From IMG/VR virus record IMGVR_UViG_3300046002_002256, positions 1-32,252 of that record: a stretch of DNA of 32,252 nucleotides. One strand, 5' to 3'. Shown in pieces: positions 15,610 through 31,400 of this stretch. Each line of letters begins with the position of its first letter. The stretch's first letter is position 1. A model generated the notes under the pieces. That model was not told the origin of the DNA. It worked only from the letters and a program-made list of their open reading frames with translations, and searched no databases. The translations under genes were made by a program, and so were the position numbers. This stretch comes from a virus.

Positions 15610-16398
15610 ATGTCCAGCACAAATATATATTCAATATATCTTATAACAAATTTAATCAATAATAAGAAATATATTGGTTATACATCAAATAAATTAGGTC
15701 ATAGATTTAATGACCATTGTAAAATTACCAAACCAAAATATCAAGAAAGATCTCCTATATCTTTTGCTATTGAAAAATATGGCAAACACAATTTTTATTG
15801 TAATGTTATTTTGCAATCTAATGATTATGAATATTGCAGATTAATAGAAACTGATTTTATTATTCAATATGATTCATTGACTTCTACTCAAGGAGGTCAA
15901 GGTTATAATATAGATAAGGGCGGAAGAGGCCATAAAAGATCCCCTGAAACTATTGAAAAACATAGACAAAAAATGAAAGGTAGACCTCAATCAGAAGAAC
16001 ATAGAGCAAAAATATCTGTTGCTAATAAAGGTAATACTAACGGTAGTAATAACAAAGGTAAAATTAGAACTAAAGAACAGAATAATGCCAATAGCGTACA
16101 ACGAAAAAAAGAATATCAGAATGGGAGAATTTCTCCACTTAAAGGTAAAAAATTTAAAGATGATTATCCTCATGCTTTAGAAAAGATGAAACAAACTAAA
16201 TTACAAAATAGAATATTTACTAATAAGTATAAAAATTTGGTTGTTCAGTTTAAAAATAATAATCCAATTAATTTAGACATAAATTATACAGATTGGTTCC
16301 AAACCCATTCTTTAAATAACTTTATGAGCAAACAAACAAAAAATAATTCTATACCAATAAAAGGTTGGAAATTAATAAGTTTTGAATTGAATAAATAG
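15610..16398 (+). CDS. GIY-YIG homing endonuclease with NUMOD-type DNA-binding repeats
   Basis: A 262-residue free-standing homing endonuclease. The N-terminal GIY-YIG nuclease domain is visible as YSIYLI then KKYIGYT (residues about 7-25), a conserved Arg in HRFNDH, KYGKHNF, and the metal-binding Glu in RLIETDFI. Next comes QGGQGYNIDKGG and two NUMOD3-like segments near residues 115-155 (RSPETIEKHRQKMKGR, SEEHRAKISVANKG), which bind DNA. The C-terminal ~100 residues are basic and Asn/Lys-rich. It is inserted between the capsid gene terminator and a structural gene, like the seg genes of T4, and carries its own late-type leader. Confidence 0.88.
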   Translation: MSSTNIYSIYLITNLINNKKYIGYTSNKLGHRFNDHCKITKPKYQERSPISFAIEKYGKHNFYCNVILQSNDYEYCRLIETDFIIQYDSLTSTQGGQGYNIDKGGRGHKRSPETIEKHRQKMKGRPQSEEHRAKISVANKGNTNGSNNKGKIRTKEQNNANSVQRKKEYQNGRISPLKGKKFKDDYPHALEKMKQTKLQNRIFTNKYKNLVVQFKNNNPINLDINYTDWFQTHSLNNFMSKQTKNNSIPIKGWKLISFELNK

Positions 16399-17487: not shown

Positions 17488-18180
17488 ATGTCCAGCGAAA
17501 CTATATATCAAGAAATAATTCCAACATATCTCTATATAAAACAACATTCAATTACTGGTCTAAAATACTTTGGTAAAACAACCAATGATCCTTATACCTA
17601 TAATGGATCTGGAGTTTATTGGAATGATCATATTAAAAAGCATGGTAAAGAACATATAGTTACATTATGGGTGTCTAATCTATTTCATGATAAATCTATT
17701 GTTGATTATGCTTTACATTTCTCAGAAGAGAACAATATTGTAGAATCCAAAGAATGGGCAAACCAAAAACCAGAAAATGGTTTAGAAGGCGGGGCAACTA
17801 CTAATGGAAAAATATGGATTAATAATGGTGTAACTAATTTGTATATACATAAATATGATCTTATACCACTAGGTTATAAAAAAGGAAGATTGTGCAAATT
17901 TAATGACCCTAATTTTCAAAGGGAAATGTCTTCTAAGGTAGATAGGATTAAACAATCAAATGCTATGAAACAAAAATGGAATGAAGGAACGTTTATTAGA
18001 GATCATTCTAAATGTGGTAAAAAAGGTGCAGATAATGTCTCAAAAAGACCTGAAGTTAGAAATAAACTGTCTATAGTCGCTAAAAATAGACCCCTGATAA
18101 CGTGCCCGCATTGTACTAAAATAGGAATAACCTCTCCTGGAATGTTTAAACACCATTTTGATAATTGTAAAAATAAATGA
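17488..18180 (+). CDS. Divergent GIY-YIG-type homing endonuclease
   Basis: A 230-residue protein. The N-terminus TYLYIKQHSITGLKYFGKTT is a divergent GIY-YIG core (YLY and YFG replacing GIY and YIG), followed by NGSGVYWNDHIKKHG, a pattern I associate with phage homing endonucleases. A WINNGVTN segment near residue 110 is also seen in such proteins. The C-terminus has a zinc-finger-like CPHC ... H-H ... C motif from about residue 205. It shares its leader and first three codons with the gene at 15610, but the proteins themselves are different. Its stop overlaps the uvsW start (ATGA). Confidence 0.75.
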   Translation: MSSETIYQEIIPTYLYIKQHSITGLKYFGKTTNDPYTYNGSGVYWNDHIKKHGKEHIVTLWVSNLFHDKSIVDYALHFSEENNIVESKEWANQKPENGLEGGATTNGKIWINNGVTNLYIHKYDLIPLGYKKGRLCKFNDPNFQREMSSKVDRIKQSNAMKQKWNEGTFIRDHSKCGKKGADNVSKRPEVRNKLSIVAKNRPLITCPHCTKIGITSPGMFKHHFDNCKNK

Positions 18181-29328: not shown

Positions 29329-29664
29329 ATGGAAATGGATTATCTAACTTTAATATTAGTACTATTGAATGGAGGAATAGGATATTGGTATGGAGTTCGT
29401 AGAACTATAAGTAAATTCCAAAATGGAGAGTTATATATAGAATATGATGAAGATGAATATATAGATGAAGATAATCAAATAATAGTAAATGATATATTGG
29501 CATACTTAGAAGTACATGACAATATTATTTATATGTATAAATTAAAAGATCATACATATCTTTCACATGGAACTTCTATAGAATCTTTACAAGATAAATT
29601 GTTAGATAGATTTCCAAATAAAACTTTTGCTATTGCATTAGATGATGAAGAAGGAATTTTATAA
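29329..29664 (+). CDS. Hypothetical protein with N-terminal membrane segment
   Basis: A 111-residue protein. Residues about 4-22 (DYLTLILVLLNGGIGYWYG) are hydrophobic enough for a membrane anchor, followed by Arg/Lys (RRTISKF), which predicts the rest lies in the cytoplasm. The remainder is acidic (YDEDEYIDEDNQ) with a mixed alpha/beta C-terminal half. No family recognised. Its stop overlaps the gp62 start by one base (TAATG), so it is coupled to the clamp loader small subunit. Confidence 0.6.
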   Translation: MEMDYLTLILVLLNGGIGYWYGVRRTISKFQNGELYIEYDEDEYIDEDNQIIVNDILAYLEVHDNIIYMYKLKDHTYLSHGTSIESLQDKLLDRFPNKTFAIALDDEEGIL

Positions 29665-30041
29665 TGAATCCATTTGATTTTATTACTGCCATTACACAAA
29701 CTAAAGAAAATCTGTTTGTTGATCCGCAGGCATATAAAGATTATAATTCATTTATGGTGAATAGAGGATTATCCCAGCATTCAGATACTATTTTATATGC
29801 TAATGAGATGAATAAATTTTATAATTTAGATAATGATATGCAATTTAAATATTTAATAAATACAATAGCTAAGAAGAAACGATTTGGTAAATGGGCAAAG
29901 AAAGATAAAGACTCTAAATCATTTTTATTAGTTAAAGAATATTTTAAATATTCTGATGAGAAGGCAAGACAAGTATTGGATATCCTAACCAATGATCAAC
30001 TTGCTATTATTGAAAAGAAATTGTATAAAGGCGGGTATTAA
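29664..30041 (+). CDS. 62: Clamp loader small subunit gp62
   Basis: A 125-residue protein matching the short gp62 of T4-like aquatic phages (T4 gp62 is 187). Recognised by NPFDFITAITQTKENL, YNSFMVNRGLSQHSDTIL and ANEMNKFYNLDNDMQFKYLI followed by KKKRFGKWAK. It completes the gp44/62 loader. Position between gp44 and regA agrees. Confidence 0.85.
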   Translation: MNPFDFITAITQTKENLFVDPQAYKDYNSFMVNRGLSQHSDTILYANEMNKFYNLDNDMQFKYLINTIAKKKRFGKWAKKDKDSKSFLLVKEYFKYSDEKARQVLDILTNDQLAIIEKKLYKGGY

Positions 30042-30042
30042 A

Positions 30043-30453
30043 ATGGATATTTTTTATGATTGGAATTATGACAGTATGCTTGAGGTGACGTTACCTGACC
30101 CTGATGCATTTTTGAAAGTATGTGAAACTTTAACTAGGATTGGTATTGCTTCTAAAAAAGACAATACGCTATATCAATCTTGCCATATATTGCATAAGCA
30201 AGGCAAATATTTTATCGTCCATTTCAAAGAGTTGTTTGCATTGGATGGTAAAGAATCCAATATCACTAATAATGATATTGAGAGAAGAAATGCTATAGCT
30301 AGTTTGCTGGGTGACTGGGGATTATTAACTATAGTAACTGCTGCGCAAGCAGAAAATAAAGCGTCATTATCCCAGATTAAGATTGTCTCTTATAAAGACA
30401 AAAAGAACTGGACTTTAACATCAAAATATACTATTGGAAACAAGAGAAAATAA
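30043..30453 (+). CDS. regA: Translational repressor RegA
   Basis: A 136-residue RNA-binding repressor matching T4 RegA (122 residues): LEVTLPDPDAFLKVCETLTR, IGIASKKDNTLYQSCHILHK, YFIVHFKELFALDG, LLGDWGLLTIV and C-terminal TSKYTIGNKRK. RegA binds translation starts of many early mRNAs. The start at 30043 is chosen because GGCGGG lies upstream and it directly follows the gp62 stop; a more T4-like start would be the Met at 30076, which lacks a good ribosome site. A longer frame from 29992 would overlap gp62 and is unlikely. Confidence 0.93.
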   Translation: MDIFYDWNYDSMLEVTLPDPDAFLKVCETLTRIGIASKKDNTLYQSCHILHKQGKYFIVHFKELFALDGKESNITNNDIERRNAIASLLGDWGLLTIVTAAQAENKASLSQIKIVSYKDKKNWTLTSKYTIGNKRK

Positions 30454-30455
30454 AT

Positions 30456-30671
30456 ATGAACGAAGAACAAAAATTGAAAATTGAAGAAAGTTTTATTGAT
30501 TTAAAACTAAATGTACGTGGTGTTAATACAATTTTAGCATCATTAGCAAAACAATCTTATGAAGTTGTTGCAGAATTGATCAATGAAATTAGATCTCAAG
30601 GAACTTCTCAAGTTGGAGAAATTGAAAAAGCCATATTGGCTGAAATTCCTGAAGTTAGCAACGAAGAATAA
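30456..30671 (+). CDS. Small helical hypothetical protein after regA
   Basis: A 71-residue, acidic, probably all-helical protein (EEQKLKIEESFIDLKLNVRG, KQSYEVVAELINEI). It starts immediately after the regA stop, so it is part of the clamp/RegA operon. No recognised family. In T4 the DNA polymerase gene 43 follows regA; here this small gene and then the structured hsp20 leader occupy the place, so gp43 must be elsewhere. Confidence 0.6.
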   Translation: MNEEQKLKIEESFIDLKLNVRGVNTILASLAKQSYEVVAELINEIRSQGTSQVGEIEKAILAEIPEVSNEE

Positions 30672-30860
30672 AAGAACACTCCTTCTCCCGAGGTAGGTAG
30701 TCTTTATCACTATAGACTTTAAATAATAGTGCGTGAAGGACCAGGATGTCCGCCGATCGATACCCACGTAAGAGGTATTCCAGATTCGTAACTGGAACCC
30801 CACCATTCTATGCCGTAAGGATAGAAATATTAATTAATCTCGCAGAAATGGAGACGCAAC
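30672..30860 (+). ncRNA. Structured 5' leader (candidate riboswitch-like element) upstream of hsp20-type gene
   Basis: Unlike its surroundings this 189-base stretch is GC-richer and full of complementary segments. AGTCT (30699-30703) with AGACT (30714-30718) and CACTAT (30708-30713) with ATAGTG (30726-30731) can form an H-type pseudoknot. TCCTTC (30680-30685) pairs with GAAGGA (30735-30740). Three hairpins follow: ATACC/GGTAT (30760-30778), TCCAG/CTGGA (30779-30796) and TTCTAT/ATAGAA with CC-GTAA-GG (30806-30826); all three loops contain CGTAA. It ends at the GGAG ribosome site. Position before an hsp20 gene in a T4-like aquatic phage recalls the manA/wcaG RNA classes, but I cannot verify identity. 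Confidence 0.65.
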
Positions 30861-31400
30861 ATGAATACAACCGCACATATGGCTTTTGGCTCACATCTAA
30901 ATCAATTCGTAGGTCTTGAGAGACTATTGAAAGATATGGAAATGTCAACAAGCGATTATCAATTATCAACTAAGTATCCTCCCCATAATATCATTAAATA
31001 CAATGACAATGAATATGTTGTTGAATTAGCAGTAGCTGGTTTTTCTAGGGAAGAATTGGAAATTACTGTTGAGGACTGCGTTCTTATTATGACTGGTACT
31101 AAAGGCGAATTTGATAATAGAGTTTTTAAATCCCAAATCGGGGAAGATATGATTGGTGAAGTAGTTGATGTTACTAATATATGGTATGATATCAAAAATC
31201 CCGCAAATATTGTCCTTCAAGAAACAGAATCAGGTGTAAGAGTTGCTATCGCCCCTGTAATGCCGTTTGCAAAAGGCAATATCAAAGTATATTTTCATTC
31301 AATAGCTATTGAAGCAGATCCTGCAGAAGCACTTGTAACTGAATATAAACGAGTATTTAGTCCAATTGTAGTTCCAACTTCAAAAATAATTTTAAAGTAA
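30861..31400 (+). CDS. Hsp20-like protein fused to Sm-like domain
   Basis: A 179-residue chimera. Residues about 35-80 match small heat-shock proteins (YPPHNIIKYNDNEYVVELAV, AGFSREELEI then LIMTGTK). The usual second half of the Hsp20 domain (a G-I-A-R-x-F type block and later strands) is missing. From about residue 88 the sequence (IGEDMIGEVV, DIKNPANIV, APVMPFAKGNIKV, EYKRVFSPIVVPTSKII) instead resembles small Sm-like proteins of T4-like aquatic phages and the protein at 19661-20023. No frameshift is needed to explain this; other frames do not encode the missing part. GGAG sits 7 bases before ATG behind the structured leader. Confidence 0.72.
   Translation: MNTTAHMAFGSHLNQFVGLERLLKDMEMSTSDYQLSTKYPPHNIIKYNDNEYVVELAVAGFSREELEITVEDCVLIMTGTKGEFDNRVFKSQIGEDMIGEVVDVTNIWYDIKNPANIVLQETESGVRVAIAPVMPFAKGNIKVYFHSIAIEADPAEALVTEYKRVFSPIVVPTSKIILK

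Follow-up and report, generated by a model that had tools for sequence, protein, structure and literature searches.

What governs the translation of hsp20, a core gene of T4-like cyanophages whose regulation is apparently unexplained in the open-access literature examined? The question is posed here by a leader of 189 nucleotides that precedes hsp20 in a 32,252-base stretch of viral DNA (the window, meaning the whole stretch analysed). An earlier note on this DNA had taken the leader for a structured cis-regulatory element upstream of a chaperone gene, which proved correct. The predicted fold of the entire leader (-45.5 kcal/mol, z = -1.8, equalled by 6 of 200 shuffled sequences) is only modestly better than chance and is weak evidence alone, so that comparison among relatives carries the case.

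Genomic Setting of the Leader

Genes for the portal, the prohead protease, the clamp loader and RegA mark the window as a fragment of a T4-like phage, and the closest cultured relatives of its portal protein are those of Synechococcus phages (56% identity). The order clamp loader, regA, (small ORF), hsp20 is common to the window, S-CAM1, S-H9-2 and C48C1. Two ORFs (15610-16398 and 17488-18180) that lie between the structural and the replication genes resemble GIY-YIG or related homing-type endonucleases, as judged from sequence.

Relatives of the leader were found on viral contigs via the downstream gene, and fall into a long form, which is that of the window (L001-L003, L005, L006, L009, L012-L014), and a short form, in which the middle hairpins are absent (L004, L007, L008, L010, L011). 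The distant leader L049 was reached through its 3′ block: the exact block TCTCGCAGAAATGGAGA also matches coding DNA of unrelated phages by chance, but L049, one of the matches, is a true distant homologue. A BLAST search with the leader gave chance matches only among cultured phages, ARAGORN found neither a tRNA nor a tmRNA in it, and no sigma-70 promoter above chance was detected on its plus strand. The features of the region are as follows.

29664-30041: clamp-loader gene, upstream of regA
30043-30453: regA, between the clamp-loader gene and the 71-aa ORF
30456-30671, plus strand: ORF of 71 aa without a family match, adjoining the 5′ end of the leader
30672-30860: leader, from the 71-aa ORF to the hsp20 ORF
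30681-30693, plus strand: 5′ hairpin C-CUUC-UCCC-GAGG, whose UCUCC (30684-30688) is complementary to the Shine-Dalgarno (SD) sequence (GGAGA)
30699-30731, plus strand: H-type pseudoknot with stems S1 (30699-30703/30714-30718) and S2 (30708-30713/30726-30731) and an A-rich loop (30719-30725)
30738-30751, plus strand: short hairpin GGAC-CAGGAU-GUCC, long form only, read from the sequence, with a G-C to G-U change in relatives
30760-30778, plus strand: hairpin AUACC-CACGUAAGA-GGUAU, long form only, with two double compensatory changes
30778-30797, plus strand: hairpin UUCCAG-AUUCGUAA-CUGGAA, long form only, invariant in relatives
30806-30826, plus strand: hairpin I, UUCUAU-(bulged G)-CC-GUAA-GG-AUAGAA, from covariation and a phage covariance model match
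30838-30854, plus strand: hairpin II, UCUC-(bulged G)-CA-GAAA-UG-GAGA, a putative thermosensor that buries the SD, from comparison and a phage covariance model match
30850-30853, plus strand: SD sequence GGAG, 7 nt before the start codon
30861-31400, plus strand: hsp20 ORF, with Pfam HSP20 in the window ORF and in relatives

In the window, the ORF at 30861-31400 joins Hsp20 residues 1-86 to a phrog_527 protein, the product of the next gene. Since the near-identical contigs L001-L003 have an intact hsp20 (141 aa) and a separate next gene, 330 nt are missing from this region of the window, either by a real deletion or by an assembly error. In L009, an insert of ~600 nt (2213-2820) separates the 71-aa ORF from the leader; the leader travels with hsp20 and not with the upstream gene.

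A Conserved Two-Hairpin Module Buries the Shine-Dalgarno Sequence

The last 60 nt of the leader form a module that is found before most of the phage hsp20 genes sampled, and its key element, hairpin II, which holds the SD, had been overlooked by the earlier note. In the common plan, hairpin I consists of a stem of free sequence, a bulged G, CC, a tetraloop and GG, and is followed by 12-22 nt, hairpin II (CUC(G)CU-NAAN-AGGAG), 4-9 nt and the AUG. Both sides have changed in six of the eight pairs of hairpin I over 40 sequences, with 125 cells showing double changes compared to 35 in shuffles. The covariation score was 0.55 against 0.12 in shuffles, and 0.48 against 0.15 in a set of 75 sequences, where a C-G/U-G exchange occurs at the UYGCU position. 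The top pair of hairpin II shows a U-A to A-U compensation; the window differs from the family at a single pair, having UCGCA/UGGAG with a bulged G30842 instead of UCGCU/AGGAG, and this change is likewise compensated.

Within the two-hairpin module of the window, the SD is predicted to be unpaired at a level of 0.02 at 25 °C, while the corresponding prediction is at least 0.15 for 19 of 20 other genes in the window. For the window, the nearest-neighbour model predicts that the SD opens little at temperatures up to 50 °C, and its prediction for the proven Pseudomonas aeruginosa element is likewise small; melting curves from energy models separate the proven thermometer from non-thermometers too poorly to weigh on either side.

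The Module Is Tied to hsp20

The distribution of the module was followed with two sets. The motif-led set was obtained with a relaxed pattern, the hairpin top GCCGNANGG plus the SD block CTCGCNNAANNGGAG, with residues taken from conserved positions; it matched more than 100 viral contigs, and hsp20 came next after 93 of the 101 matches having a real hairpin-I stem. A similar pattern (linker 12-18 nt) applied to bacterial genomes as a control gave 80 matches, none of which precedes hsp20. The second set started from Hsp20 proteins and is independent of the conserved-residue pattern. Here the module was present ahead of the gene and on its strand in 66 of 79 loci at E<0.01 and in 72 of 79 at E<1, three of these loci being also in the training set of the covariance model. 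The anti-SD and SD combination UYGC[UA]..NGGAG precedes 66/72 hsp20 ORFs as opposed to 3/157 other ORFs with an SD, and of the latter, two are small ORFs directly before hsp20; UYGC[UA] itself is present in 72 of 75 leaders. A promoter core lies within 40 nt upstream of the module in 21/35 cases, compared to 5% of random windows.

Several arrangements were seen besides. In L238, there are two consecutive matches to the phage model (1315-1370 and 1478-1539), one of which lies before a small rubredoxin-like ORF (CxxC..CPxCG) and the other before hsp20. In L074, L095, L151, L224, L245 and L126, a ROSE-like leader stands before an unknown small ORF (MLxNINxxIDTF.. / MLxYANMAIDAIQ..); hsp20 follows closely in L074, L095 and L151, and none was seen in L126. 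The ROSE-like leaders of L097, L152 and L158 precede an ORF of 53-54 aa, hsp20 being absent from the DNA examined around the leader, and in L152 and L158 the C-terminus of regA lies upstream. Permuted tmRNA genes (RF04321) occur on two viral contigs that also carry hsp20 (L075:619-901 and L076:2346-2630).

The Core Has the Architecture of a ROSE-Like Thermometer

ROSE-like thermometers are defined by a 3′ hairpin that bears the SD and in which U(U/C)GCU is imperfectly paired with the SD around a G (PMC3669281, PMC11182007); those of Pseudomonas ibpA have two hairpins only and about 62 nt (PMC3669281, PMC11182007). The proven short element of this type, the P. aeruginosa ibpA leader, has two hairpins, U(U/C)GCU, and G39 opposite the SD (PMC3669281). 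The phage leader likewise lies in the 5′ UTR of a small heat-shock (Hsp20/IbpA) gene, as seen from Pfam HSP20 and the association with hsp20, and it holds its SD in an imperfectly paired, 3′-proximal hairpin (30838-30854). The family has the U(U/C)GCU anti-SD and the G opposite the SD, the window being one base off (UCGCA, compensated), and the number of hairpins falls within the two to four of the class, with the two-hairpin module and, in the window, extra 5′ hairpins.

A covariance model (R1) built from 35 phage leaders, all from outside the clade of the window, matches the window at 30803-30863 (E=5.7e-12), as well as the cultured phages Melnitz-3, S-H9-2, Syn1, Mosig, HTVC115P and S-CAM1, and it also matches the P. 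aeruginosa ibpA leader (E=0.0017). In the reverse direction, Rfam ROSE_3 (RF02523) finds phage hsp20 leaders at the correct position with E=4e-8, 1.6e-6, 0.003 and 0.004, all of them below the gathering cut-off of 43 bits, since phage leaders reach at best 35 bits. The ROSE_3 search of the window gave no match. Because of this, and because of the UCGCA/UGGAG departure, the core is filed as ROSE-like by architecture and not as a member of RF02523.

The ibpA leader in the record of "Pseudomonas phage Y7" (L372, OQ572409.1) scores 69 bits with ROSE_3, and its numbering, counted on the sequence, agrees with that published for the P. aeruginosa element (C36, U38, G39, C40, SD G51-G54). This record is marked UNVERIFIED and holds ibpA of P. 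aeruginosa together with its leader; the region is probably bacterial DNA inside a phage record.

A Clade-Specific 5′ Domain with a Pseudoknot

The earlier note had placed a pseudoknot at 30699-30731, and both its existence and its coordinates were confirmed. The stems, AGTCT/AGACT (S1) and CACTAT/ATAGTG (S2) in the window, occur among relatives as AGUCU/AGACU, AGUCA/UGACU, GGUCA/UGACC, AGUCC/GGACU and GAUCG/CGAUC for S1, and as CACUAU/AUAGUG, CACUUU/AAAGUG, UGCUAG/CUAGCA and GUGUCC/GGACAC for S2. Over seven sequence types, 76 of 77 cells of S1 and S2 are paired, and none of 5000 partner shuffles was as good; with these compensatory changes, the pseudoknot is therefore real. It is a 5′ add-on of the small clade of the window and not a part of the core module, most hsp20 leaders with the two-hairpin module having no 5′ domain of this type. 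Covariation in homologues, which the note had named as the check, is found also in the hairpins at 30760-30778 and 30806-30826; the hairpin at 30778-30797 is invariant in relatives and thus uninformative in this respect.

Three hairpins (30760-30778, 30778-30797 and 30806-30826) do carry CGTAA within or next to the loop, but the suggestion that CGTAA is a docking or protein-binding signal did not hold, the loop sequence varying among relatives. As a conserved loop motif it was rejected: among relatives, the first loop reads CGTGA and the third one GAAA, GTAT or GCAA, and the short forms have neither of the first two hairpins. The note had further brought up manA and wcaG RNAs, structured RNAs associated with marine phages that lie upstream of chaperone genes, and had considered the leader a divergent member of these or a new class. 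Rfam scans of the leader with all families, including manA, wcaG and riboswitches, at the gathering cut-off and at E<=10 returned nothing relevant, and the manA and wcaG models had no match at any threshold. Nor is it a wholly new class, given that the core has a ROSE-type architecture with a known bacterial counterpart; what is particular to the clade is the added pseudoknot domain.

The UCUCC at 30684-30688 is unchanged in all relatives, the distant L049 included, and the UCUCCC of the short 5′ hairpin is retained in L049 although the remainder of its 5′ domain differs. Full-length folding without pseudoknots predicts that in the window and L005 the SD pairs with this 5′ block and not within hairpin II; the short forms are divided between the two predicted pairings, and in L049 the SD is predicted to lie in hairpin II. 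The pairs between the 5′ block and the SD hardly vary among relatives, so that covariation gives no decision between the pairings. On these folding predictions, the 5′ block is possibly a second, competing anti-SD.

Proposed Mechanism and Rival Explanations

In its leader, this phage hsp20 very probably carries a ROSE-like RNA thermometer to which a clade-specific 5′ domain has been added, and we infer that heat melts the thermometer and derepresses the translation of hsp20. At low temperature, the anti-SD UCUCGCA (30838-30844) would pair with UGGAGA (30849-30854), leaving a bulged G across from the SD, and ribosomes would be excluded. Heat, or a heat-like stress in infection, would then melt the weak hairpin II and release the SD, while hairpin I would remain folded and keep the register of the two-hairpin module, as happens in the short thermometers of Pseudomonas ibpA. 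Within the clade of the window, the module would act behind a 5′ domain made of the UCUCCC hairpin and the H-type pseudoknot, plus three hairpins in the long forms; this domain may supply a second partner for the SD, mutually exclusive with hairpin II, and would probably tune or gate the switch. A fuller version, which we consider rather unlikely, is a composite switch in which the ROSE thermometer and the pseudoknot domain with its second anti-SD (UCUCCC) would make hsp20 translation answer to two inputs, temperature and a further signal (a protein or ligand), via two mutually exclusive structures that mask the SD.

Might the leader instead be mainly a protein operator, on whose pseudoknot or hairpins a translational repressor of the phage, either RegA or the single-strand binding protein, nucleates to block hsp20 translation? 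The precedent is T4 gp32, which binds the H-type pseudoknot of its own leader (PMC3014915), and by this analogy the 5′ domain could be a protein site; the pseudoknot in the window is of the H-type too, covaries and has an A-rich loop, and regA is nearby upstream. RegA sites, however, are A+U-rich and unstructured (PMC3014915), the 5′ domain is missing from most of the hsp20 leaders that share the module, and the two-hairpin core fits ROSE with no protein required; the operator is very improbable as the main function. That the 5′ domain is a metabolite riboswitch acting via the UCUCC/GGAGA pairing is extremely improbable: the pseudoknot is compact, its flanking blocks are invariant and the alternative anti-SD excludes hairpin II, but no Rfam riboswitch matches at any threshold, the domain is seen only before hsp20 in one small clade, and the pseudoknot has few invariant loop bases, with S1 and S2 varying freely.

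The module could also be merely a strong ribosome-binding site with hairpins stabilising the 5′ end, and no temperature switch at all; hairpins placed right after promoters, as the promoter counts above indicate, could protect the mRNA, and the SD is near-perfect. Yet the anti-SD strand, bulged G included, is conserved as much as the SD and compensates for it, and such a pairing reduces ribosome access instead of raising it; this reading we hold to be highly improbable.

Relation to Known Systems and Significance

The closest counterparts of the phage leaders are the short ROSE-like thermometers of Pseudomonas ibpA (RF02523, ROSE_3; PMC3669281), which likewise lie before a small heat-shock gene, comprise two hairpins in about 60 nt, and have a stable hairpin I with a GCC...GG top and bulged G and a hairpin II whose anti-SD is of the U(U/C)GCU type and places a G opposite the SD. 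The phage leaders differ in their shorter loops (GNAA, NAAN) and in scores below the Rfam cut-off, and the window in its UCGCA/UGGAG and the added 5′ domain with the pseudoknot. The rhizobial and enteric elements (Rfam ROSE and ROSE_2) share the UYGCU core at an SD-bearing 3′ hairpin and the small heat-shock genes, but have three to four hairpins and other sequences, and neither family gave an Rfam match here. RNA thermometers known from phages are lambda cIII, SPbeta blyA and a sigma-70 fourU in a Caudoviricetes (PMC11182007, PMC4166951); these are thermo-regulated phage leaders too, but are not there termed ROSE type and are not on hsp20. The T4 gene 32 leader (PMC3014915) resembles that of the window in having an H-type pseudoknot in the mRNA leader of a T4-like phage, but belongs to another gene and lacks the ROSE module, the likeness being one of pseudoknot type.

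No phage ROSE element or hsp20 thermometer was found in the open-access literature, an earlier mention elsewhere being possible, and the open-access literature examined on cyanophage small heat-shock genes and proteins mentions neither a leader nor an RNA thermometer. If ROSE thermometers are as general in phages as they are in bacteria, then RNA in viral mRNA couples infection to temperature or proteotoxic stress in abundant aquatic phages, and a family whose described members all belong to small heat-shock genes of bacteria extends to viruses. The roughly one hundred elements are a directly testable set, and the pseudoknot add-on would illustrate how a ROSE thermometer acquires a second input.
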